Of a DNA stretch of 45,708 nt, positions 29-37,827 are shown piece by piece. Origin of the DNA: Erythrobacteraceae bacterium (GTDB lineage Bacteria > Pseudomonadota > Alphaproteobacteria > Sphingomonadales > Sphingomonadaceae); the NCBI GenBank assembly GCA_027487015.1, contig JAIYEK010000294.1, positions 1 to 45,708 on the forward strand, read 5' to 3'. The position numbers were made by a program, and so were the translations under genes. The stretch's first letter is position 1. The number at the start of each line of letters is the position of its first letter. The notes beneath the pieces were generated by a model. The model was not told the origin of the DNA and made no database searches. It worked only from the letters and a program-made list of their open reading frames with translations.

Positions 29-119
29 GGAGACGTGGGTGAGTGGCTGAAACCAGTTCCCTGCTAAGGAACCGTACTCTATCAGGGTACCGAGGGTTCG
101 AATCCCTCCGTCTCCGCCA
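29..119 (+). tRNA. tRNA-Ser (anticodon GCU), integration site; encoded CCA end
   Basis: Acceptor stem GGAGACG...CGTCTCC, anticodon stem-loop GTTCC-CTGCTAA-GGAAC with GCT at 63-65, long variable arm, GGTTCGAATCC T-arm, GCCA end. Confidence 0.95.
106..119 (+). repeat. attL core candidate: CTCCGTCTCCGCCA (tRNA 3' end)
   Basis: Exact 14-bp direct repeat of 39867-39880; integrase gene directly downstream. Confidence 0.8.
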
Positions 120-19043: not shown

Positions 19044-20553
19044 TACCAATGTCTTCATAGGCCTCGAGGATCATGCAGAGGTCGCCCCCAACTTCGCCGC
19101 GCTGCTGCAACTGACGGCGCGCTACGGCGTGGGCGTGTTCGTCCATGCTGCGGCAGTCGACGACATTCAGCGTGATCGCGATCTAGCGCGGCGCCGTGTC
19201 TCGCTCAGCAAAATTCGCAAGTTCCCTGTCATCGATAAGGTGATGGGCCTGGACCAGCCCGCGCTCGAGGCGCGGTTCGGGCCAATCCGAAAGCCCAATG
19301 ACTTGGTCGATGCGACGCTGCTGCACGCCCTAGACATCGGCGTCGCCGACTTCCTCGTTACGGAAGATCAGGGCCTGCACGAACGCGCCCGGCGTACTTC
19401 GGCGACGCTTAGCGACCGGGTCCTCTACGTCGCGGATGCGGTGTCGTTCCTGCGCACAACCTACGAACCAATCGAGGTAGCACTTCCTCAAATACAGGAG
19501 GTCGACGCGCACCGCATTCCGGCGGAAGACCCGATCTTCGCGAGCTTGCGAGGCGACTATCCAGGCTTCGACGCTTGGTGGCGAGAAAAGTGCGTAAAGC
19601 CGATGCGCAAATGCTGGGTGGTCGTTGACGAGGGCGCGATTGCCGGGCTGGTCGTGCGCAAGGATGAGGCACCGGGTGATACTGACGCGAGCCTGCCGGG
19701 TACTAGGATCCTTAAAGTATGCACCTTCAAAGTGCGGCCCGAGAGCCGCGGGGTCAAACTCGGCGAGCTACTGCTCAAGCAAATCCTCTGGTATGCACAG
19801 ACGAACCGGCACGATGTCGTCTACCTCACCACCTATGCAGGCCAAGCGACCCTCATAGATCTACTCGAATTCTATGGTTTCATGCACACTCATGACAACG
19901 CGAACGGTGAGCGCGTTTATGAGAAGACGCTCTCGAGGGACCCGCTCGCGATTGTCCAGGGCCAGTCCCTTTTCGAGCTTGCTCGCTGCAACTATCCGCG
20001 GTTCGCGACGGGAACGGGTGTCAACGCCTATGTCATTCCGATACAAGAAGCCTATCACGAAGTCCTGTTCCCGGAGCTGATGCAGCGTAGTCAGTTGAGC
20101 CTATTTGGCACGGCCGCGGATCTGGGCATCCACACGCCAGGCAACACGATCCGTAAAGTGTATCTGTGTCGCGCGAAGGCGCAGATCGTCCAGCCCGGTG
20201 CCCTCTTGTTTTTCTACAAGGGGAAGTCCGGGCACCCACCTTCGCAGGCGATCACTACCGTGGGTATCTTCGAAGAAATGGCGCTTGCCCGGTCGACCGA
20301 AGAGTTGCGTCGCATCGCGGGCGGACGGTCGGTCTACAGCGATACGCAGCTCACCATGATGTCAGCTACGCCCGCGCGCCCGGTCAAGGTCATCAACTTT
20401 CTGCTTGCCGGGCATTTTGACCCGGCCATGAAACTGCAGACCCTGAAGAAAGATGGAGTGTTCGCCGACCATCCCCCGCAATCGATCAAACAACTGGACT
20501 CAACGCAACAGGGCGCTTTGTTAAGTTATGCGCAGCTTGGGTTCGCGGTATGA
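19018..20553 (+). CDS. PIN-GNAT-PUA-like (ASCH/EVE) triple-domain protein
   Basis: PIN: YLIDTNVFIGLED, LVDATLLHA, FLVTEDQGLHERA; GNAT: LKVCTFKVRPESRGVKLGELLLKQILWYA...LLEFYGFMHTH; C-terminal KVYLCRAKAQIVQPGALLFFYKGKS...AITTVGIFEEM. Confidence 0.78.
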   Translation: MSVPKYLIDTNVFIGLEDHAEVAPNFAALLQLTARYGVGVFVHAAAVDDIQRDRDLARRRVSLSKIRKFPVIDKVMGLDQPALEARFGPIRKPNDLVDATLLHALDIGVADFLVTEDQGLHERARRTSATLSDRVLYVADAVSFLRTTYEPIEVALPQIQEVDAHRIPAEDPIFASLRGDYPGFDAWWREKCVKPMRKCWVVVDEGAIAGLVVRKDEAPGDTDASLPGTRILKVCTFKVRPESRGVKLGELLLKQILWYAQTNRHDVVYLTTYAGQATLIDLLEFYGFMHTHDNANGERVYEKTLSRDPLAIVQGQSLFELARCNYPRFATGTGVNAYVIPIQEAYHEVLFPELMQRSQLSLFGTAADLGIHTPGNTIRKVYLCRAKAQIVQPGALLFFYKGKSGHPPSQAITTVGIFEEMALARSTEELRRIAGGRSVYSDTQLTMMSATPARPVKVINFLLAGHFDPAMKLQTLKKDGVFADHPPQSIKQLDSTQQGALLSYAQLGFAV

Positions 20554-25643: not shown

Positions 25644-26330
25644 ATGCCCCTCTATCCCATCGATATCGAAAAGCGCCTGAAGGCCCTGCAGCGCCAAGCG
25701 CGGTACGAAGCGGAAGGCGCGCCCTACGTCATCTATGCCCTTCTCGATCCTGGTGAGCCCGGTCTGCCGTTTACCGAGGGTCCGTTCAACGGCATACCGT
25801 TCTATGTTGGGCAGAGCTGCGAAATCGAGCGTCGACTACGCCGGCATTTCCGAAAGTCGCAGAAACTCAACCCGGACTGCCAAATGGTCCATCGGCACAT
25901 AGCTCGGTTGTTCGCGCTCGGCCGATTGCCCCGGCTTGCCATTCTCGAGACGACCCAGACGCGCAGCCAAAGCCTGATGGCTGAATTGCGGTGGGGGCAG
26001 CACCTAATGCGCGCGGGGTTTCAGCTGACCAACACGAGCGCCGACATCGAACGGGTCATAAGCCACACTGAGTTGGAGGCATGGTTGGACTTTCGGCGCT
26101 CCTCGATGCTCGCCAGCGAGGCGGCGCAAGAAGGTGCGATGATCGTCCATAAATGTAACTGTGGTCATGTGGACCGGTGGATCGACCCGGCAGATTACGC
26201 GGCATGCTGGTCGAAGCGCCTTAGGGTCTGCAAAATTGCGATGCGGACCCAGCAATGCCCAGGGTGCGGCGAGGCATGCATTTGGTCGCTTGAAGATCGC
26301 GAACTTCTGTCGGCGTACTTTACCAATTGA
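25644..26330 (+). CDS. GIY-YIG-like protein with C-terminal Cys-rich (zinc-ribbon-like) region
   Basis: YVIYALLDP...GIPFYVGQSCEIERRLRRHFRKS; HKCNCGHVDRW...QQCPGCGEACIW. Confidence 0.65.
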   Translation: MPLYPIDIEKRLKALQRQARYEAEGAPYVIYALLDPGEPGLPFTEGPFNGIPFYVGQSCEIERRLRRHFRKSQKLNPDCQMVHRHIARLFALGRLPRLAILETTQTRSQSLMAELRWGQHLMRAGFQLTNTSADIERVISHTELEAWLDFRRSSMLASEAAQEGAMIVHKCNCGHVDRWIDPADYAACWSKRLRVCKIAMRTQQCPGCGEACIWSLEDRELLSAYFTN

Positions 26331-26383
26331 AATCCATAGCGCATTATCCTTTGTGTCGAGGATGAGATCGAGGATGTAAAATT

Positions 26384-28438
26384 GTGATTGGCTTGCTCGA
26401 CAATCCCTTCGCAGTCCTCGGTGTCACGCCTCGATCATCCAAGGCCGAGATACACGATGCAGTCGAAGACGCCCTTCTCGATGCTGAGGGCGTCGAAGAA
26501 GAGCGGCGGTTAGAGATCGCTAGGCAGGCCCTGATTTCACCGAATGAGCGCCTCAAGGCGGAATTGGGCTTTCTTCTTGAGCTTCGGCCCGCTGAGGCGC
26601 GAAAGGCGCTCCGGGCAAGAACGTATGCAGACTGGCGCGGCGTTGCACGGGATGCGGCGGGGATTTCCGGCCTCAACGCGCTGGTGGAGGCAATCTGTAA
26701 GGCCCCGGATATCCAATCTTTCGATGGCCCCTTCCGCGATCTTATAGGGGGCTGGGGGTGCATCAACGAGAGGAACATTGCTCAACAAATCAACGAGGAA
26801 CGGGCAATATCTGGGTTTACCGAGGTCCAGATTGCTGACGTTCGCGCGTCGTTGGCGGACCTTCGCACCCATCACGCATCGCGAACCATCGAAACCCTCG
26901 AGAAACTTGGCAGCGCGCCGCGGTATCTAGCAGATTTGCTCGTTTCGACCCTCAAGCCTGAGGGCAAAAGCCGCGAAGCGTTTGTGACTGCTGCCCTTGA
27001 TTCCTACGCCAATCGCGTGGGTGGCGCATTGGTCAGCGGCGCAGATCGGGTCTTGGCGACGCTGGAGACATACTCAGTTAGCGGCGAAGACGCCGATTTT
27101 GCAACGTTTGAGCAAGCACTTGAAGCGTGGGATGTTCTTGCACAGCCACTGCAAATCGCGGCCGAGGCCAAGGGCGCGGATGAGGAAAACTCAAAAGCGC
27201 TGTACGAGCAGATCCGCTCCGTCGCCATCGATCTCGCTAATGACGAAGATCGACACCACGAGGCACTCAAGATCACGAGCCTTTCGCAGCGGATTTTCGC
27301 TGAACTGCCGGGCGCCGTTGAGTTCCTGAAAAAGGACGCGCGCACGCTAAATGATGTGATCGCGAGCAAAACCCGGGACAAGCATCTGTTGCCTTTGGCT
27401 TTGGCGTTGGAACAGGCGCGCGAAGATCTTGCGGCGACCAGTCGCCAGTTGTCAGCCCACGGTTTCTCGGCATCTGCACCCAAGCCGGTTGGGCCCATCT
27501 GGTCAGCCTACGTCGGCCTTTTGTCTCGCGAAGTGGAGAAGGAAATTCGGGACATCGGCGCGAACCTGGTGCGCAACCTCTCGATCACGCTGTTCAACGA
27601 CAGGCAAGAGCCTGTTCAGGCAAAAATGCTGACCTCACAGCTAGCTGCTGATTCCGACTGGTTCTCGGCCGACGTCCGCACCCAGATAGAAGACGACGAT
27701 AGCTACCTCAATCGGAGCGTGAAGCTTCAAGAACTGCTCGCAGCGATGAAGCGGGAAGATTGGGGGCAGGCCAAGACCCTCTGTGAATCCCTCATACGTG
27801 TGTCGCCTGCTTCCGAGCTCGACGGCCTTCGGAAAATCGAAGCCGTGATCGATGAGAAGCGCAGGTCCCGCAATATCAGCAGGCTTGTCTGGGGCGGGAT
27901 CGCAGCGGCGGTGGTTGGCGGCGTCGTGCTGAATCAAAATGACCGCCCGGCGTACGAAGAGCCAGCTTATGAGGGTCCGTACATTGCGGAAGAGGAAATC
28001 GCGGCGCCCTCCGCCCAAGACGAGGAAAACGAGATAATCGTCAGGCAGGATTCTTCCGATGAAGAAGTGATGCCTTCCACATATCCGGTAGCGCCGCTCT
28101 CGCGTGCTGAGCTTCGCTACTGCCTTAGGCAATCTGAGAGGTTGGATCTCGCCCGAGATCTTGTTGACAGCTTTAGCCAGCAGACCCGATTTAACGCAGC
28201 GGTCTCAGATTTCAATTCGCGCTGCTCAAGCTTTAGATATGACGAAGCTGACATGTCGGTCGTAAGAGCTGAAATCTCTGCAATGCGCGATAGATTGAGA
28301 TCCGAGGCGGCCGAAATTGTCGGCGCAAACAGCATAGCCACGCCACCAATCTACACAGCTCCCTCAAGCAGTCCTTCGTACGAAGAACCTGCTTCCGACT
28401 TCGATGAGACGTTCGGTGTGGAAGATAATGGTCGATAG
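26384..28438 (+). CDS. Membrane-anchored J-domain-like protein (no HPD motif visible)
   Basis: NPFAVLGVTPRSSKAEIHDAVEDALLDAEG at N-terminus; TM LVWGGIAAAVVGGVVLN; directly upstream of GrpE-like and Hsp70 genes. Confidence 0.6.
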   Translation: MIGLLDNPFAVLGVTPRSSKAEIHDAVEDALLDAEGVEEERRLEIARQALISPNERLKAELGFLLELRPAEARKALRARTYADWRGVARDAAGISGLNALVEAICKAPDIQSFDGPFRDLIGGWGCINERNIAQQINEERAISGFTEVQIADVRASLADLRTHHASRTIETLEKLGSAPRYLADLLVSTLKPEGKSREAFVTAALDSYANRVGGALVSGADRVLATLETYSVSGEDADFATFEQALEAWDVLAQPLQIAAEAKGADEENSKALYEQIRSVAIDLANDEDRHHEALKITSLSQRIFAELPGAVEFLKKDARTLNDVIASKTRDKHLLPLALALEQAREDLAATSRQLSAHGFSASAPKPVGPIWSAYVGLLSREVEKEIRDIGANLVRNLSITLFNDRQEPVQAKMLTSQLAADSDWFSADVRTQIEDDDSYLNRSVKLQELLAAMKREDWGQAKTLCESLIRVSPASELDGLRKIEAVIDEKRRSRNISRLVWGGIAAAVVGGVVLNQNDRPAYEEPAYEGPYIAEEEIAAPSAQDEENEIIVRQDSSDEEVMPSTYPVAPLSRAELRYCLRQSERLDLARDLVDSFSQQTRFNAAVSDFNSRCSSFRYDEADMSVVRAEISAMRDRLRSEAAEIVGANSIATPPIYTAPSSSPSYEEPASDFDETFGVEDNGR

Positions 28439-28462
28439 TAACATCTCGGGAGAAGTTGCGTC

Positions 28463-28849
28463 ATGAGTTCGGAAAGAGCTGTTTCTGCCCCCGACGAGGT
28501 GGCTATCTCCGAGATGGCAGTCGATTTTTGGAAGTTGCTGCGCATCTCGGATCGAATGTTGGTGAGTCTGCCTGATGAGAGGCGCACGAGGTTTGCAGCA
28601 CAAACGAGGTTCTCGGCGGGCCGCTTGGAGCAGCATCTGGACGCACTCGATATCAGTCTGGCGACCTTCGAAGGTCAGGTGTTCGGTCCCGAGCTTCCCG
28701 CAATCGCAATCAATGCCGACGATATTGAAAGTGACCCGGCGCCAATCGTCGAGTCTGTTGTCGAGCCTGCCGTGATTTGGAGAGGCAGGGTAATCCAGAA
28801 CGCCAAAGTGATTTTGAAGGGGAGCAACGTCGATGTATCTCGGGATTGA
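28463..28849 (+). CDS. GrpE-like small protein (divergent)
   Basis: C-terminal FEGQVFGPELPA...VEPAVIWRGRVIQNAKVILKG resembles GrpE beta-domain pattern; overlaps Hsp70 start. Confidence 0.45.
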   Translation: MSSERAVSAPDEVAISEMAVDFWKLLRISDRMLVSLPDERRTRFAAQTRFSAGRLEQHLDALDISLATFEGQVFGPELPAIAINADDIESDPAPIVESVVEPAVIWRGRVIQNAKVILKGSNVDVSRD

Positions 28850-31343
28850 TCTGGGCACGTCGAACTCGGCGGTGGTAGGCGTTGATGATGCCGGTGTCCG
28901 GCTCTTCAAGACCAGTGATGGTAAGGATGTTCTGGCGAGTGTCCTTTATTTCGACCGTGGTGGACGCATGTCCGTCGGCACGAGAGCCTATGCTCAGTTG
29001 GAGCTTGCACCCGACAAGGTCGCGCACGGTTTTAAGCGGCTTATGGGAACATCCAGCACGATTGAACTGGCAGGAGCGGGCAAGTCTTTGACCCCAGAAC
29101 AAGCCAGTGCTGAAGTCATCCGTGAATTGCTCCGGCAAGTCGAAGCCGAGACCGGCGCCCGGGATGTTACCGGCGCGATCATCACCATTCCGGCCGCGTT
29201 CGATCAGATGCAGTCAGAAGCGACCATCCGGGCCGCGCATGAAGCAGGTCTTGCCAAGGTTGGATTGCTGCAAGAACCGGTTGCAGCAGCAATGGCTGCC
29301 CTTGAGGGCGCAGCACGCCGCGATGGCCGATTCCTCATCTATGATCTTGGCGGCGGGACCTTCGACCTGGCCCTCGTTGAAGCGACTGGCGGTGCGGTCA
29401 ACGTCATCGCGCATGAAGGCATCAAGATGCTTGGCGGAAGAGACTTCGACCGCACTATCGTCGATTCCATCATTCGCCCGTGGCTGAATGCAAATTTCCG
29501 CCTTCCGGAAAATCTGGCGTCGGATGATCGATACAAGCGCCTTTTGGCCGTCATGCGCAACAAGGGCGAGCTGGCCAAGATCGAACTCTCCACGCGGGAT
29601 CAGGCGGTGATCTATCTCAGCGAAGATGACGCCCGGACCGACGACCTGGGTGGCAATCCCATTTACGTCGAGGTCGAAATCTCGAGGGCACAGTATGAGG
29701 ATCTGATCAAGGATCGGATCATTGAAACCATTGAGCTTTCTCGAAAAATCCTCAAAGATAATGGCCTTACCCATGAGGATATCGACCGTGTAGTCTTCAT
29801 TGGCGGTCCGTCGAAAACTCCGGTCATTCGCGACATGGTCAGCCGTGAACTCGGTATTCCCGCAGACCACAAGATTGACCCTATGACCGCAGTTGCACGC
29901 GGTGCTGCGATTTTCAGCGAGAGTCGCGACTGGTCGGTCGAGAAGGGGCAGAAGAAATCAGCCCGCGGCGCAGTTGCGACGACCGGGGACTTCAAAGCGC
30001 GCGTGGTTTTTACGGCCAGGTCTGCAGATGATCGGGCAAGGTTGCGGGTAGAGGCCGAGACAGGGACTGGGGAATACAAATTCAAAGTCCTGGGTCCAGA
30101 TGGCTACGATAGTGGCTGGGCGCCTCTGGATGAAAAGGCTTCCATGACCGTGCCTCTCAACAAGCCGGGCAGACATGTTTTCACTGTCCAGATTGAGGAT
30201 GCTGGCGGCCAGAGGGTCTGCGAAGATCAGATTGTTGAAATCACCCGCACGGAAGCTTCCGCGGCTGCAATCCATGCCACCCAAACAGTGTCGGTAAAGA
30301 TCGCCGAGGGCCCCGCTTCCGAAAGAAGGAACGTGCTTCACCCCCTCATTAAAAGGGGATCGCCCTTGCCAATAGAGGGAACGGAAATCTTGCGTCTGCG
30401 CGAAAAGATGCGTGGTGGAACCCCTGGCAGGTTCGATGTTGAGCTTTTCAACCACGCTGACGGCGTGAACGATCCCGAGCTCAATCTTGCGATTGGTGTG
30501 TTTCGCATCCTAGCCGATGACATCCTCGATCCCGGAGAGATCGCTGAGGCAGGTACTGAAGTTCACATTCATTGGAAGATGGATGACAATGGCCTTATAA
30601 GGTGCTCTGTCGCCATCCCTGACCTGCAAGTCCACCTTCAAGACAAGTCCTTTTACGTTCCCCAGGCGGGTCAGGATCGTTTTGACGGCGAGGAAGGTGC
30701 GGCCTTGGCCGAGAGCAAGCTCGTCGATGCGGAGGGAGCCATCGAAGAAGCGCGGTCGGCCATGGGCGGCGAGCCTAAGCTCGAGCAATTGAAGCGGCGT
30801 CTCTCACGACAGAAGGAGTTGCTAGCCAATTCCAGCGATGCAGAAGCCCGGCGGTCCGTGACTGAGGAGGCTCTTCATGTGCAGCAGGAGTTGGCGCGCC
30901 TGAAGGAGGCCCCTGAACACCGCCGTGCCGTCCTTCTTCAGGAAATTGAGCACATCGAAGATGGCATCTCCGACCTTATTGAAACGATGGATCCCGCTAC
31001 CGTCGAAAGGCTCAACACCTTGCTCCGGTCGGCGCGCGAGGAGATCAGCAACGAAAACTGGTCGGGCGTGCGCCAGTTGGTCCAGCAGGCGCGCACTGTC
31101 TTCCAGCGATCGCTGTATGAGCAGCCGGCATTCATTTTTGCCATGTTCGAGCGGCTTGCAGCGGAGCGGCATTCTGCCCTCGACAAGGACCTCCACGACC
31201 GCTTGGTAGACCAAGGCTGGACAGCGGTTGAGCAGCAAGACGTCGAGAGTGTCCGGGAGGTGCTTGGCATGATTGTTCGCAACCGCATGCCAAATGAGTC
31301 CGAGAGCAGTGGCGTCACGATGCTTGCCGGGCTCATGCGCTGA
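28833..31343 (+). CDS. Hsp70-family protein with divergent C-terminal half
   Basis: MYLGIDLGTSNSAVVGV, ITIPAAFDQMQSEATIRAAHEAGL, LIYDLGGGTFDLALV, VVFIGGPSKTPVIRDMV. Confidence 0.93.
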   Translation: MYLGIDLGTSNSAVVGVDDAGVRLFKTSDGKDVLASVLYFDRGGRMSVGTRAYAQLELAPDKVAHGFKRLMGTSSTIELAGAGKSLTPEQASAEVIRELLRQVEAETGARDVTGAIITIPAAFDQMQSEATIRAAHEAGLAKVGLLQEPVAAAMAALEGAARRDGRFLIYDLGGGTFDLALVEATGGAVNVIAHEGIKMLGGRDFDRTIVDSIIRPWLNANFRLPENLASDDRYKRLLAVMRNKGELAKIELSTRDQAVIYLSEDDARTDDLGGNPIYVEVEISRAQYEDLIKDRIIETIELSRKILKDNGLTHEDIDRVVFIGGPSKTPVIRDMVSRELGIPADHKIDPMTAVARGAAIFSESRDWSVEKGQKKSARGAVATTGDFKARVVFTARSADDRARLRVEAETGTGEYKFKVLGPDGYDSGWAPLDEKASMTVPLNKPGRHVFTVQIEDAGGQRVCEDQIVEITRTEASAAAIHATQTVSVKIAEGPASERRNVLHPLIKRGSPLPIEGTEILRLREKMRGGTPGRFDVELFNHADGVNDPELNLAIGVFRILADDILDPGEIAEAGTEVHIHWKMDDNGLIRCSVAIPDLQVHLQDKSFYVPQAGQDRFDGEEGAALAESKLVDAEGAIEEARSAMGGEPKLEQLKRRLSRQKELLANSSDAEARRSVTEEALHVQQELARLKEAPEHRRAVLLQEIEHIEDGISDLIETMDPATVERLNTLLRSAREEISNENWSGVRQLVQQARTVFQRSLYEQPAFIFAMFERLAAERHSALDKDLHDRLVDQGWTAVEQQDVESVREVLGMIVRNRMPNESESSGVTMLAGLMR

Positions 31344-31461
31344 CGCATCCGGCCGTAGCTCAGGCATGGTCCGCCCATGTTGATCCTGATGGCAACGTGC
31401 TGAAGTCACGGGGTAATGGTCATCGTTGCCAGTCATCTCCCCCTGTGCTTTACCACGGGCA

Positions 31462-34400
31462 ATGACCAGCCCCGCCGACATCGACGCGTTTATTAGCGAA
31501 TGGCGCGGCACGGGCGGCAGCGAACTCGCCAACACCCAGTCCTTCATCAACGGCCTGGCCCGGCTGCTCGGCGTCGATCCCCCGCGCGGCGCGAAGGCTG
31601 ACGACACAGCGAATGACTACGTCTTCGAACGCCGCGTCTTTCAGGATAATGGCGACGGCACCACCAGTTTCGGCCGGATCGATTGCTACAAGCGCGGGTG
31701 CTTCATCCTCGAAGCCAAGCAGGGCAGCGAGGCTGACCGGGCGGCGGCCGACAAGGGCGAGGACGATCTCGACATCTTCGGCCAGACCGCCAAGACCCGC
31801 GTCGCCCGCGGCACTGCCCGGCGCGGCACACCCGGATGGGCCAAGGCGATGGTGCAGGCCAAGGGCCAGGCCGAACGCTACGCCAAGGCGCTGCCCATCG
31901 ATCATGGCTGGCCGCCGTTCCTGCTCGTCGCGGACATCGGATATTGCATCGAGGTCTATGCAGACTTCACCGGCACCGGCAAAGCCTACGCCCAGTTCCC
32001 CGACCGGGCGCGCTACCGGATCATGCTTGAGGATCTGCGGGACGAGGATGTGCGCGATCGCCTTCGCGCCATCTGGACCGATCCCAAAAGCCTCGATCCC
32101 ACCGCCCGCGCCGCCCGCGTCACCCGCGACATTGCCGATCTCCTCGCCACCGTCGCCCGCCGCCTCGAAAAGCGCGGCTACGATGCCGAGACCACCAGTG
32201 GCTTCCTCATGCGCGTGCTGTTCACAATGTTCGCCGAGGACAGCAAGCTGATCCCCGAGGGCAGCTTCACCCAGCTGCTCAAGAACCAGCGCGCCCATCC
32301 GGAACATCTCGAACACCAGCTTTCCGCGCTGTGGGCGGCGATGGACAAGGGCGAATTCTCTCCCGCGCTCGGCGTCCCGCTCCGGAAGTTCAACGGCTAC
32401 CTGTTCAAGGAGCGCACCGCCCTGCCCCTCGATGCCGAGGAGCTGGAGGTGCTGATCCAGGCCGCCGAACACGTCTGGACCGAGGTCGAGCCCGCGATTT
32501 TCGGCACCCTGCTCGAACGCGCGCTCAACCCCAAGGAGCGGGCCAAGCTCGGCGCGCATTACACCCCGCGCGCCTATGTCGAGCGGCTGATCGGCCCTAC
32601 CATCATGGAGCCGTTGCGTGCCGACTGGGACGGGGTGCGCGGCGCGGCTGCCACTCTGATCGAAGAGGGCAAGGCGGATGAGGCCAAGGCCTTTGTCGAG
32701 GCGTTCCATTCCCGGCTCGCCCAGACCAAGGTGCTCGATCCCGCCTGCGGCACCGGCAACTTCCTTTATGTCGCCATGGCACGCATGAAGGAGTTGGAGG
32801 GCGAGGTGCTCGATCTGCTGGTCGAGCTGGGCGACGACCAATATGTCGCCGAGCTGACCGGCCACACCATCACGCCCGAGAACTTCCTCGGTATCGAGAT
32901 CAACCCGCGCGCCGCCGCCATTGCGCAGCTGGTGCTGTGGATCGGCTATCTGCAATGGCATTTCCGCGTGAACGGTGCGGATCGCACCCCGCCCGAGCCG
33001 ATCCTGCGCGACGTCAAGACCATCGAAAACCGCGACGCCCTGATCGAGTGGGACGAAAAGGTTGCAGAGCTGGACGAGAACGGGGACCCCGTCACCCGCT
33101 GGGATGGCGAGACGATGAAGGAGCACCCAGTCACCGGCAAGAAGGTGCCCGACGAGACGGCGCGGGTGGAGGTATATCGCTATGTGAAACCACGCGCGGC
33201 AAAGTGGCCGAAGGCGGATTTCATTGTCGGGAACCCGCCGTTCATTGGCGGCAAAGATGTGCGCGACCGTCTGGGCGATGGCTACTTCAAGGCGCTGTTC
33301 GCGACTACGGACGTACCCGAGAGTGCCGATTTCGTCATGCACTGGTGGGACAAGGCGGCAAACGCCGTGCGCAAGGCAGGCACGCGCCGATTCGGTTTCG
33401 TCACCACCAATTCGATCACGCAGGTGTTCAGCCGCCGGGTGATTGCCAAGCACCTGGACGCCAAGGACCGGGTAAGCCTGCTGTTTGCCATACCGAACCA
33501 CCCTTGGGTGGATGAGAAGGATGGAGCGGCGGTGCGTATCGCCATGACGGTCGCCGCGCCGGGAAAGGCAGTGGGCCAGCACTGGAGCGTTGCCGACGAA
33601 AGCGGTGCGCCCGATCATCTCGTTTACACCGAGAGGGTCGGCCAGATCAGTGCCGACCTCAGGATCGGGGCGGATGTAACGTCGGCTATCGGTCTCAGGG
33701 CCAATGAAAAGCTGGCATCTCGTGGCGTTCAGCTGATGGGCGATGGGTTCATTGTCACATCGGAACAAGCCCACGCACTCGACGCAATTCGAGCCCTTTC
33801 GGCCCAGCCAGCAAAGATTCGCACGGGCGTCAGCGATGGAAGCACGATCATATTCGACTATCGAAATGGCCGTGACCTCGCTTCGCGCCCACGCGGTGTG
33901 AAGGTGATCGATCTATACGGGCTGAGCGAAGCCGATGTGCGTGACCAGCACCCGGCGGTGTATCAGCATGTGCTGGCCAACGTGAAGCCGCACCGCGCCC
34001 AGAACAATCGCGCAAGCTACAGGGAGAATTGGTGGCTGTTTGGCGAGCAACGTTCAGAGCTGCGTAAAGCTCTTCGCGGGGTAAACAGATACATCGCCAC
34101 TATCGAAACGGCCAAACACCGGGTTTTCCAGTTTTTGCCGATGTCGATCCTTCCAGACAACATGCTCGTCTGCATTGCCCTTGAGGATGGTTTTGCTCTC
34201 GGTGTCTTGTCGAGCTGTATCCATGTGCCGTGGGCGCTTGCATCGGGTGCACGGCTCGGGATGGGTGACGATCCGCGTTACAGTAAAACCCGCTGCTTCG
34301 ACCCCTTCCCATTCCCCGCCGACGTGTCCGAACCGCTCAAGGATAAGATCAGGGCCGAGGCCGAGGCGCTCGACGCGCTGCGCAAGCGGGTTCTTGAAAG

Positions 34401-34950
34401 CGATGAGGACCTGACCCTCACGAAACTCTACAACGTGCTCGAAGCCCTTCGGGAGGGCCGCGCGCTGACCGATGCCGAACGCGACATGCATGATCGCGGG
34501 CTCGTCACTCTGATCCGCCAGCACCATGATGCGATCGATGCGCTGGTTGCCGAAGCCTATGGCTGGCCCGCCGACCTCTCCGATGAGGAAATCCTCACGC
34601 GCCTCGTGGCCCTCAACAAGGAGCGCGCCGCCGAAGAAGCCCGCGGCCTGATCCGTTGGCTACGCCCCGAATATCAGGCGCCCGACTACAAGGCCCCCGT
34701 CACCCAGACGCTCGACCTTGGCGAAACCGCCGCCGCGCTGCCGGACAACGTCATCCCATGGCCCGGCTCGCTCCCCGAACAGGTCAGCGCCGTCCAATCC
34801 ATCCTCACCGCCGCCGCCACGCCCCTCGCGCCGCAAGACGTCGCCCGAGCCTTCAAGGGCAAACGCGCCGCTACCGTCCGTCCGGTACTGGACGCACTCG
34901 CCGGCATTGGCATGGCACGACGGCTGAAGGACGGGCGATATGCTGCTTGA
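31462..34950 (+). CDS. MmeI-like (type IIL/IIG) restriction-modification fusion enzyme
   Basis: N-terminal FGRIDCYKRGCFILEAKQGSEAD (D...ExK); MTase VLDPACGTGNFLYVAMARM and ADFIVGNPPFIGGK (NPPF). Confidence 0.88.
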   Translation: MTSPADIDAFISEWRGTGGSELANTQSFINGLARLLGVDPPRGAKADDTANDYVFERRVFQDNGDGTTSFGRIDCYKRGCFILEAKQGSEADRAAADKGEDDLDIFGQTAKTRVARGTARRGTPGWAKAMVQAKGQAERYAKALPIDHGWPPFLLVADIGYCIEVYADFTGTGKAYAQFPDRARYRIMLEDLRDEDVRDRLRAIWTDPKSLDPTARAARVTRDIADLLATVARRLEKRGYDAETTSGFLMRVLFTMFAEDSKLIPEGSFTQLLKNQRAHPEHLEHQLSALWAAMDKGEFSPALGVPLRKFNGYLFKERTALPLDAEELEVLIQAAEHVWTEVEPAIFGTLLERALNPKERAKLGAHYTPRAYVERLIGPTIMEPLRADWDGVRGAAATLIEEGKADEAKAFVEAFHSRLAQTKVLDPACGTGNFLYVAMARMKELEGEVLDLLVELGDDQYVAELTGHTITPENFLGIEINPRAAAIAQLVLWIGYLQWHFRVNGADRTPPEPILRDVKTIENRDALIEWDEKVAELDENGDPVTRWDGETMKEHPVTGKKVPDETARVEVYRYVKPRAAKWPKADFIVGNPPFIGGKDVRDRLGDGYFKALFATTDVPESADFVMHWWDKAANAVRKAGTRRFGFVTTNSITQVFSRRVIAKHLDAKDRVSLLFAIPNHPWVDEKDGAAVRIAMTVAAPGKAVGQHWSVADESGAPDHLVYTERVGQISADLRIGADVTSAIGLRANEKLASRGVQLMGDGFIVTSEQAHALDAIRALSAQPAKIRTGVSDGSTIIFDYRNGRDLASRPRGVKVIDLYGLSEADVRDQHPAVYQHVLANVKPHRAQNNRASYRENWWLFGEQRSELRKALRGVNRYIATIETAKHRVFQFLPMSILPDNMLVCIALEDGFALGVLSSCIHVPWALASGARLGMGDDPRYSKTRCFDPFPFPADVSEPLKDKIRAEAEALDALRKRVLESDEDLTLTKLYNVLEALREGRALTDAERDMHDRGLVTLIRQHHDAIDALVAEAYGWPADLSDEEILTRLVALNKERAAEEARGLIRWLRPEYQAPDYKAPVTQTLDLGETAAALPDNVIPWPGSLPEQVSAVQSILTAAATPLAPQDVARAFKGKRAATVRPVLDALAGIGMARRLKDGRYAA

Positions 34951-34965
34951 TAGGCGAGAGGGCGC

Positions 34966-37827
34966 ATGAAGGAAGACGACTTCAAGCTTTGGATGACCCG
35001 GGCTGGGTACGATTCCGGCACAATCAGCACACAGATTGCCCGCGCAAAGCGTCTCGATCAGACATACGGCGACCTCGACGAGCATTTTGACCGCGACAAG
35101 TTCACGGCAATCGCCGCGACCCTGAAATATTCCGCCCAGGACAAGCGGGATGGGACGCCGAACCCGTCAAAGCTAGAGATCGACGGGGATTTCTATTCGA
35201 ACCTCGCGAGCTACCGCGCCACGCTGAATTTCTATCAGCGGTTTCGCGACGACGATCAGGCCGGCCGCAAGCCTCGGCTACCGAAGTTGGTGGATGACCG
35301 ACTTTCTTCCGAAGTCACCCGAATGATGGGCGTGTTCAAGCAGCGAATGCCTGACTTCACGGGGTTCGCAGAGGAAACTGGGCAGTTCTGGGAATACGAA
35401 GGTCAATATAAGCGCGATGCCCGAGATGCGGTGATCGCCGCCGCAACCGACTTTGATCAGACAGATGCGGAATGCGGACGCAGAGTTTTCAAGGCTTTGG
35501 TTCAGGGGACACAGCAAGGTCTGCCTCTCAGCTGGCGGACCTATGCCGAAATCGGGAAAGCCGAAGGTTACTTGGAGATACGGTTTTACGAAACGGTGGC
35601 CAGCCTGGCTCGCTTGGAAGCGGGAGACCATGACGGGCTGTTGCGCTGTGCCCGCCAGCTCGAGAGCCTGAGGGAAGCCGGTATCTCGGTCATGCGGCGG
35701 GGAGAAGTTCTCGGCATAACGATTTCGATTTACGGCACCGTGAATGTCAATGATGCCTGTTGGTACAAGGCACGGACGTTTGATCGGCTCGGCAAAGCCC
35801 TGTTGGGCCACAAGCTATTTCCTTCGCCACAGTTCGAAATCGCTGAATTCGAAGAATTTCAGTGGACGATGAACAGGATCCGGGATCAGCTGGATGATTG
35901 GAATTGGCAAACAGGCAGCCTGACCGACGTCCAAGGGTTCATTTGGGTGGCAATGGCCGAGACATGGGGGGAAGCGCAGGTGGCAGACCTTACCCGCGAA
36001 GCCGTCGAGCAGGCGATGGACGAGTGTGAAGAAATCGGCGTCGACGCTTTTCTCGAGAAGTACAAGTTTGGCAAACCGCGAGATTATTGGACCAGACGCG
36101 AACCGGACGGGATGCTTTTCCCCGCCAAAGCCACAGTTGGCGTCGCGCACGGCTACATGCCCGGAGGCTCACCCCAAAGCGCCAAGGAGTTCTATGGCGG
36201 CTTCGGGGAGCAGGCTGCAAACGGCATTCTACAGCGCCTTGGCTTTGAAATCGTGACAGGAAAAGCGGAAACCCTGCCTCCGCGCTCAGAACGCAAGGTC
36301 GCTCCACCAATGAAGCCAACCAATCTCATCCTGTTCGGCCCACCGGGTACCGGCAAAACGTACGCCACAGCGGCTGAGGCCGTGAGGCTTTGCGGTGAGG
36401 AAGTTCCGGATGACCGTGATGTGTTGATGAAAGCCTATCGCAGGCTGGCCGATGCGAAGCGGATCGAGTTCGTCACGTTTCATCAATCGATGAGCTACGA
36501 AGATTTTGTCGAGGGCAAGCAGCCGGTGACGGGCGGGGATGGTGAGGAATCCTCCGGCGGCTTCAGGCTGGAGACCTTTCCTGGCATTTTCCGGCGTATT
36601 GCCCGTCGCGCCGAAACCAGCATCAGCCACTCCGCTGGACCCGACGCCATCCGGATCGACGGACGCCAAGTATTCAAGACGTCCATCGGCGAGGCCGCAA
36701 ACCCCGAAGATGCCTACCTTTTCGACGAAGCTATCTCACAAGGCCATACGCTGCTTGGGTTCGAGGACATCGACTGGAGTGATGACAAGTATGCCTCGCG
36801 CGAGGCAATCATTGACGCGTGCCGGGAGCAGGGTGATCGAGAAGGGGACTTGAATGCCCAGACCGGCCGGGTGCAGATGCCCTTCATCTTCCGCAATTGG
36901 GTGAAGCCCGGCGACCTCCTGATCGTGTCGAAGGGCAACAGCCTTTTCCGTGCAATCGGTGAGGTGACTGGCGGTTATGAGTTCGCACCAAGACCCGAAG
37001 GCGGCTATGCACATCGCAGGAAAGTCAGATGGTTATGGGTGGATCGAGAAGGCGTCCCCGTCAGCGAGATTTACCAGCGCAAGTTTAGCATGCGGACCAT
37101 ATATCTCCTGACAAAGGATGAATTGAATGTTGCGGCGCTCGAACGTTACATCAACAGCCAGCAGCCGACGCAGCAGGCGGTGCCCTCACCTGATCACTTC
37201 GTTTTGATAATCGACGAGATCAACCGCGCCAATATTTCCAAGGTGTTTGGGGAATTGATCACGCTTCTTGAGCCCGATAAGCGGCTCGGACAAGAGAATG
37301 AACTCAAGGTTAGACTGCCCTACTCGGAGGATGAATTCGGAGTTCCGTCCAACCTTCACATTGTTGGTACGATGAACACCGCCGATCGCTCTATCGCTCT
37401 ATTAGACACCGCTTTGCGCCGGCGGTTCGATTTCAAAGAGATTCTGCCTGATCCTGACGTGCTTGCAGGTGTATCTGACCGAACCGGTGTCGATCTGCCG
37501 AAGGTGTTAAAGGCATTGAACGAGCGGATCGAGTATATGTTCGACCGTGAGCATCAGATTGGGCACGCATACTTTCTTGGGTGCGAGTCACGTGCCGAAC
37601 TTGATCGCCGAATGCGTTTTCGGATCATTCCACTGCTAGCGGAATACTTCTTCGAGGATTGGACCAAGGTCGCCTTGGTGTTGGGCGATCGGGAAGGTTC
37701 TCGATTCTTGGAAAAGAGTGAACTCAGACCTCCGCTTGGCCTCGATGAGGATGGCGAGGCTCCCACAAGATGGCGGTGGAATGTTCGCACTGAGTTCTCC
37801 GAAGACGCCTATGCCGGTCTGATGTGA
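34966..37827 (+). CDS. mcrB: McrB-like AAA+ NTPase with extra N-terminal domains and a putative inserted EVE-like domain
   Basis: Walker A LILFGPPGTGKTYAT; FVTFHQSMSYEDFVEG; FVLIIDEINRANISKVFGELITLLEPDKR; GTMNTADRSIALLDTALRRRFDF. Confidence 0.9.
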   Translation: MKEDDFKLWMTRAGYDSGTISTQIARAKRLDQTYGDLDEHFDRDKFTAIAATLKYSAQDKRDGTPNPSKLEIDGDFYSNLASYRATLNFYQRFRDDDQAGRKPRLPKLVDDRLSSEVTRMMGVFKQRMPDFTGFAEETGQFWEYEGQYKRDARDAVIAAATDFDQTDAECGRRVFKALVQGTQQGLPLSWRTYAEIGKAEGYLEIRFYETVASLARLEAGDHDGLLRCARQLESLREAGISVMRRGEVLGITISIYGTVNVNDACWYKARTFDRLGKALLGHKLFPSPQFEIAEFEEFQWTMNRIRDQLDDWNWQTGSLTDVQGFIWVAMAETWGEAQVADLTREAVEQAMDECEEIGVDAFLEKYKFGKPRDYWTRREPDGMLFPAKATVGVAHGYMPGGSPQSAKEFYGGFGEQAANGILQRLGFEIVTGKAETLPPRSERKVAPPMKPTNLILFGPPGTGKTYATAAEAVRLCGEEVPDDRDVLMKAYRRLADAKRIEFVTFHQSMSYEDFVEGKQPVTGGDGEESSGGFRLETFPGIFRRIARRAETSISHSAGPDAIRIDGRQVFKTSIGEAANPEDAYLFDEAISQGHTLLGFEDIDWSDDKYASREAIIDACREQGDREGDLNAQTGRVQMPFIFRNWVKPGDLLIVSKGNSLFRAIGEVTGGYEFAPRPEGGYAHRRKVRWLWVDREGVPVSEIYQRKFSMRTIYLLTKDELNVAALERYINSQQPTQQAVPSPDHFVLIIDEINRANISKVFGELITLLEPDKRLGQENELKVRLPYSEDEFGVPSNLHIVGTMNTADRSIALLDTALRRRFDFKEILPDPDVLAGVSDRTGVDLPKVLKALNERIEYMFDREHQIGHAYFLGCESRAELDRRMRFRIIPLLAEYFFEDWTKVALVLGDREGSRFLEKSELRPPLGLDEDGEAPTRWRWNVRTEFSEDAYAGLM

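Follow-up and report, generated by a model that had tools for sequence, protein, structure and literature searches.

The analysed stretch of DNA, referred to here as the window (45,708 nucleotides), encodes a divergent Hsp70, a membrane-crossing J-like protein and a short GrpE-like protein, whose genes form a single co-inherited unit and represent a new and mobile form of the Hsp70 machine. The module is a complete second Hsp70 machine in which the J–Hsp70 contact of every canonical system has been dropped on both partners at once. Computational evidence supports the make-up of the module, the joint inheritance of its genes, the loss of the HPD contact and the anchoring in the membrane, and the architecture is assigned with high confidence. 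That it operates as a self-contained machine tethered to the cell envelope and carried as defence cargo is an evenly balanced judgement. No description of the trio was found in the open-access literature.

Four consecutive genes had been singled out in a sequence-only reading of the window, and their order and coordinates hold. All are on the forward strand, namely, a GIY-YIG-like gene (25644-26330), the gene of the J-like membrane adaptor (26384-28438; 684 aa, GTG start), the small gene encoding the GrpE-like protein (28463-28849; 128 aa) and the Hsp70 gene (28833-31343; 836 aa), the last two overlapping by 17 nt. They are located on an island whose left boundary is formed by the last 14 nt of a tRNA-Ser gene (106-119, forward strand), a 14-bp direct repeat CTCCGTCTCCGCCA, with an integrase gene beside it (259-1410). 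The tRNA-Ser end is repeated at 39867-39880 (forward strand), which sets the right boundary and gives an island of about 39.8 kb. Other genes of the island include a 1076-aa NACHT-domain protein (9631-12861, reverse strand; Pfam E 2.7e-7, above the cut-off, no PADLOC match) and a 1535-aa protein (13357-17964, reverse strand), which matched no Pfam or PADLOC model and in which a P-loop (GFQGSGKT) and a restriction-like N-terminus can be seen by eye. A gene pair at 18252-20553 (forward strand) matches the PADLOC phage-defence candidates PDC-M11B and PDC-M11A, and the region 31426-39131 (forward strand) encodes an MmeI-type IIG restriction-methylation enzyme and, after it, an McrB/McrC pair with McrB of the NxxD type. 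Separate DnaK, HscA, GrpE and DnaJ proteins are also encoded by the genome of the window, so the trio is an extra chaperone set; a profile search revealed no second copy of the small gene in this genome.

The ATPase domain of the Hsp70 (residues 1-362; 28833-29918, forward strand) matches Pfam HSP70 over residues 3-361 (E 1.5e-59), and its ATPase motifs are intact, as had been noted from the sequence. In the alignment, equivalents of the catalytic DnaK residues D8, K70, E171, D194 and T199 are present in 32 of 32 module Hsp70s, which, judged by these residues, are probably ATPase-competent. The J-docking residues are replaced. In DnaK, the aspartate of the HPD motif (Asp35) binds R167 and Q378, while the histidine binds L391 of the linker (PMC8215388). 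The equivalent of R167 is alanine, glycine, serine or threonine in all 32 module Hsp70s, that of N170 is glutamine or histidine and that of T173 is valine or isoleucine, while the arginine is kept by the genome's own DnaK and HscA. Since the J partner of the module also lacks HPD, the canonical contact has gone from both sides together. Alignment to the genome's own DnaK further showed that the LLLD interdomain linker is replaced in the window Hsp70 by an inserted beta-rich segment (residues about 390-475; 30000-30257, forward strand), which is probably Ig-like, with a Pfam match to Y_Y_Y no better than E 0.19. The C-terminal half, described at first reading as unlike DnaK, indeed has no Pfam or NCBIfam Hsp70 match; the description is only partly right, because a putative, divergent substrate-binding beta domain is visible there (residues about 480-605; 30270-30647, forward strand), with a weak second match colinear with the DnaK SBD-beta over residues about 502-605 (independent E 2.9).

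The small protein has no match in Pfam, and an hmmsearch of the PDB gave only a marginal GrpE match (E 0.23). Profile–profile comparison (hhalign) aligned it to GrpE over 125 columns with a probability of 96% (E 2e-9), while unrelated profiles scored about 1% or less. The AF2 model (pLDDT 92) consists of two helices and a beta wing, and the eleven best folds retrieved from the PDB by Foldseek are GrpE or GrpEL1 without exception (best E 1.1e-3). The GrpE-like character proposed for this gene is thus borne out by profile and fold; the small protein, too short for the long leading helix of GrpE, is a short GrpE-type protein and the predicted nucleotide exchange factor dedicated to the module Hsp70. 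The small protein of the window had 0 matches among 50,697 phage records.

The J-like protein probably begins with a J-like domain (residues 7-61; 26402-26566, forward strand), an assignment made with moderate confidence from the modelled helix order and a DnaJ profile. In the AF2 model (pLDDT 86) the N-terminal helices 8-12, 20-33, 37-51 and 53-61 follow the order of a J domain, with a shortened loop where the HPD would sit, and the best match of the DnaJ profile within the whole protein falls on this region, with weak scores (probability 34%, E 4e-4). A hmmsearch of the J domain against the PDB gave only repeat-driven or unrelated matches, and a fold search with the whole model retrieved generic helical repeats, uninformative on the J domain. 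The motif HPD is found in 0 of 74 J-like homologues. A transmembrane helix is predicted at residues 498-516 (27875-27931, forward strand; hydropathy 1.85 over 19 residues). Of the earlier description of this gene, the missing HPD and the late transmembrane segment are thus confirmed, and the J-like start passes weakly. The N-terminus is probably cytosolic, given its Hsp70 partner, and the C-terminal part is predicted to form a periplasmic helical domain (residues 574-646; 28103-28321, forward strand) with the conserved cysteine pair RYC...FNSRC. This two-cysteine motif is common to fused and split homologues. PG_binding domains neighbour the cysteine domain in loci L013 and L015; the fused J protein of Aminobacter contains a peptidoglycan-binding domain, and the Vibrio locus includes a gene for a peptidoglycan-binding protein. 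Taken together, these features support the earlier suggestion of a parallel Hsp70 machine that is tethered to the membrane and has J-like and GrpE-like partners.

Relatives were sought with a family-specific part of the Hsp70 as query in 84,980 species genomes, which yielded 277, and the best 80 of these 277 were kept; the set was enlarged by 6 loci from viral contigs and by plasmid loci, and 95 loci, including the window, were examined. The Hsp70 C-terminus was found in 94 of the 95 loci, the small protein in 74 and the J-like protein in 75, and in all 62 loci with usable proteins the three genes are on one strand. Tree distances across these 62 loci are correlated between Hsp70 and the small protein (0.92), Hsp70 and the J-like protein (0.93) and the small and J-like proteins (0.86), compared with r of 0.15 at most in 500 shuffles. 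The Hsp70 and small genes overlap or abut in most loci. The three genes are therefore a single co-inherited unit, more conserved than could be seen from the window.

The alphaproteobacterial layout is mostly J-like gene, small gene and Hsp70 gene. In beta-, gamma- and deltaproteobacteria and in viral contigs the order is mostly small gene, Hsp70 gene, a gene for an ATPase of 450-490 aa and two J genes, which encode the membrane/periplasmic and J-domain parts separately. The added ATPase of the Shewanella copy matches Pfam AAA, and PG_binding_1 is present in the membrane part of its J protein. The added ATPase was scored as IetA-like by PADLOC, which may reflect mere AAA kinship. About 20 Hsp70 relatives have no small and J-like partners and seem to represent another subfamily. 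Close relatives without these partners (L025, L026, L029, L032, L035, L042, L055, L056, L061 and others) come mostly from alphaproteobacterial MAGs. One close relative (L022) belongs to a cyanobacterial MAG and groups with sphingomonads; its contig may be misbinned.

The module is sparse and mobile. The J-like gene was detected in 3 of 401 genomes of the window organism's order, and the small gene in 1 of 150 genomes of the order of locus L074, that genome being the one used to choose the order, so the genes are not single-copy core genes in relatives. Together with the separate DnaK, HscA, GrpE and DnaJ, this agrees with the sequence-only reading, in which a housekeeping role was considered unlikely. 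Among 5,426 E. coli genomes one contains a close copy that is intact, and another a truncated copy, a search in which more divergent copies would be missed. The intact copy, in strain HeN100, is of the beta/gamma type, with the small, Hsp70, AAA and two J-type genes, and chromosomal (L187:18001-24784); it resides on a tRNA-Phe island together with the adjoining RADAR gene rdrB, a dptF fragment and cbtA. The truncated copy, in strain NH-21 (L188:12001-15679), lies between IS1 elements and retains only the AAA gene and the two J-type genes. Near-identical copies of the module were found across different genera, and the carriers include plasmids, Tn7-like elements (cargo in Shewanella and Aeromonas), tRNA islands and IMG/VR contigs.

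Carriage beside defence genes, noted for the window, is often seen across the loci. The window module is accompanied by PDC-M11A/B, the IIG restriction-methylation enzyme and McrBC, the Polaromonas copy has zorA nearby, and the Sinorhizobium copy adjoins a restriction endonuclease and Fic/VbhA; other neighbours comprise integrases, RepC, type I restriction, Wadjet JetC and a Pycsar-type TIR. Near the module, 86 PADLOC models (121 proteins) were matched in the first set of loci and 129 (127 proteins) in the second, compared with 32 (110 proteins) elsewhere in the genomes of the first set, the models being redundant, the control sites hand-picked and limited to those genomes, and the first-set IetA matches including the module's own AAA protein. 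The enrichment is modest and suggestive only, and part of the module copies are set among ordinary genes. No model of PADLOC-DB 2.0.0 matches the trio or the GIY-YIG gene, and membership of the trio in a known PADLOC system was rejected on this ground.

Judged by this context, defence is the likeliest selected function of the module, a role that we hold with about as much belief as doubt. In such a machine the J-like protein would hold the Hsp70 at the inner membrane by a contact other than HPD–R167, and the periplasmic cysteine domain, with peptidoglycan-binding domains in some relatives, would anchor the machine or report a disturbance of the envelope. When phage or other foreign DNA invades, the Hsp70 would grip or remodel a protein at the membrane and would then be reset by the GrpE-like protein. 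Counting against a defence role, no conserved nuclease, toxin or other effector accompanies the trio. A rather improbable version is an immune system in which the chaperone is the only active part, a stripped, import-motor-like Hsp70 with an HPD-less J-like tether and a GrpE of its own that would act directly on proteins located at the inner membrane or entering through it and so block phage or other foreign DNA. The main rival, ranked next after defence and possible at a distinctly lower probability, is tolerance of envelope stress, with the module as transferable cargo that shields membrane or envelope proteins from heat, metals or oxidants, or dissolves their aggregates, and has no anti-phage role. 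It would account for the chaperone make-up and for the periplasmic and peptidoglycan-binding domains, and there are precedents: HscC with the tail-anchored DjlB/DjlC alters sensitivity to Cd2+ (PMC8215388), and quality-control genes move as islands in tLST (PMC8290217). However, genes for restriction, defence and mobility are frequent neighbours, and the module is extremely sparse.

The module could help the mobile element itself, for example in replication or conjugative transfer, since its hosts include plasmids and an island with genes for a TraA-like relaxase and RepB/ParB, and the remodelling of plasmid and phage initiators is a known activity of DnaK (PMC8215388); yet carriers as different as plasmids, Tn7-like elements, tRNA islands and IMG/VR contigs have no element gene in common, which makes such a role improbable. 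It is still less probable that the chaperone serves to license an immune NTPase nearby, for instance the NACHT protein (9631-12861). The NACHT domain (E 2.7e-7) lies on the same island and bNACHT25 depends on DnaJ and its J-domain (PMC12169576), but the gene is more than 13 kb away on the opposite strand, and the only conserved NTPase beside the module elsewhere is the AAA protein. The chaperone-gated system with the GIY-YIG protein as effector, proposed in the sequence-only reading, is the least credible and very improbable. The GIY-YIG gene, which has a partial Pfam match below the cut-off (E 0.0014), is on the same strand as the J-like gene and about 54 bp from it, but no homologue at E<=1e-3 was found in any other Hsp70-carrying locus examined or on module plasmids, and the single tblastn match among plasmids is on one without the module. 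A weak GIY-YIG match (E 0.0046) occurs about 4 kb from the module in L019. Thus, of the four genes the trio recurs together, while the GIY-YIG gene is unlinked at all other module loci and, for this reason, is very unlikely to encode the effector; it was rejected as a module member and is regarded as a neighbour only. The preferred reading remains the membrane-tethered machine carried as defence cargo. As the module keeps its ATPase residues and an exchange factor, it raises the question of whether an Hsp70 cycle can run without HPD. Because it is found in defence islands and one copy belongs to a sequenced E. coli, the biochemistry and the defence role are both open to direct testing.

Among known systems, tLST/LHR islands likewise move protein quality-control genes, but the tLST gene set differs (ClpK, a small Hsp20, FtsH and others), and no tLST/LHR core genes were recognised among the window genes scanned. 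Hsp70 homologues also occur in the restriction islands of CoCoNuT systems, and an McrBC pair adjoins the window module. However, in the CoCoNuT Hsp70, CnuD, the ATP motifs are degenerate and the accompanying McrB is of the NxD type (PMC11090510), whereas the module Hsp70 motifs are intact, the adjacent McrB has MNTADRS (NxxD), and the other loci lack McrBC in a conserved layout; the McrB motif and the intact ATPase residues led to the rejection of a CoCoNuT-type McrBC–Hsp70 system (type III, NxD McrB/CnuB). In the E. coli HscC–DjlB/DjlC system, as in the module, the Hsp70 has J-type partners that are anchored in the membrane and encoded close by. DjlC acts as a J-domain protein in stimulating HscC, whereas the module J protein has a transmembrane helix but no HPD, and the module adds a dedicated GrpE-like gene and a large periplasmic domain. 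The mitochondrial import motor consists of Hsp70, Mge1, Pam18/Pam16 and Tim44, and Pam16 is an HPD-less J-like subunit. The module resembles it, as a comparison of working only, in combining a membrane-tethered Hsp70 with a GrpE-type factor and a J-like subunit that lacks HPD, but neither a translocase nor a Pam18-like J protein was found in the module. With DnaK–DnaJ–GrpE the module shares an Hsp70 with intact catalytic residues encoded together with GrpE-fold and J-like partners. Unlike that system, it has neither HPD nor equivalents of R167, N170 and T173, an insert replaces the DnaK linker, its GrpE is very short, its J protein crosses the membrane, and its genes are accessory and mobile.
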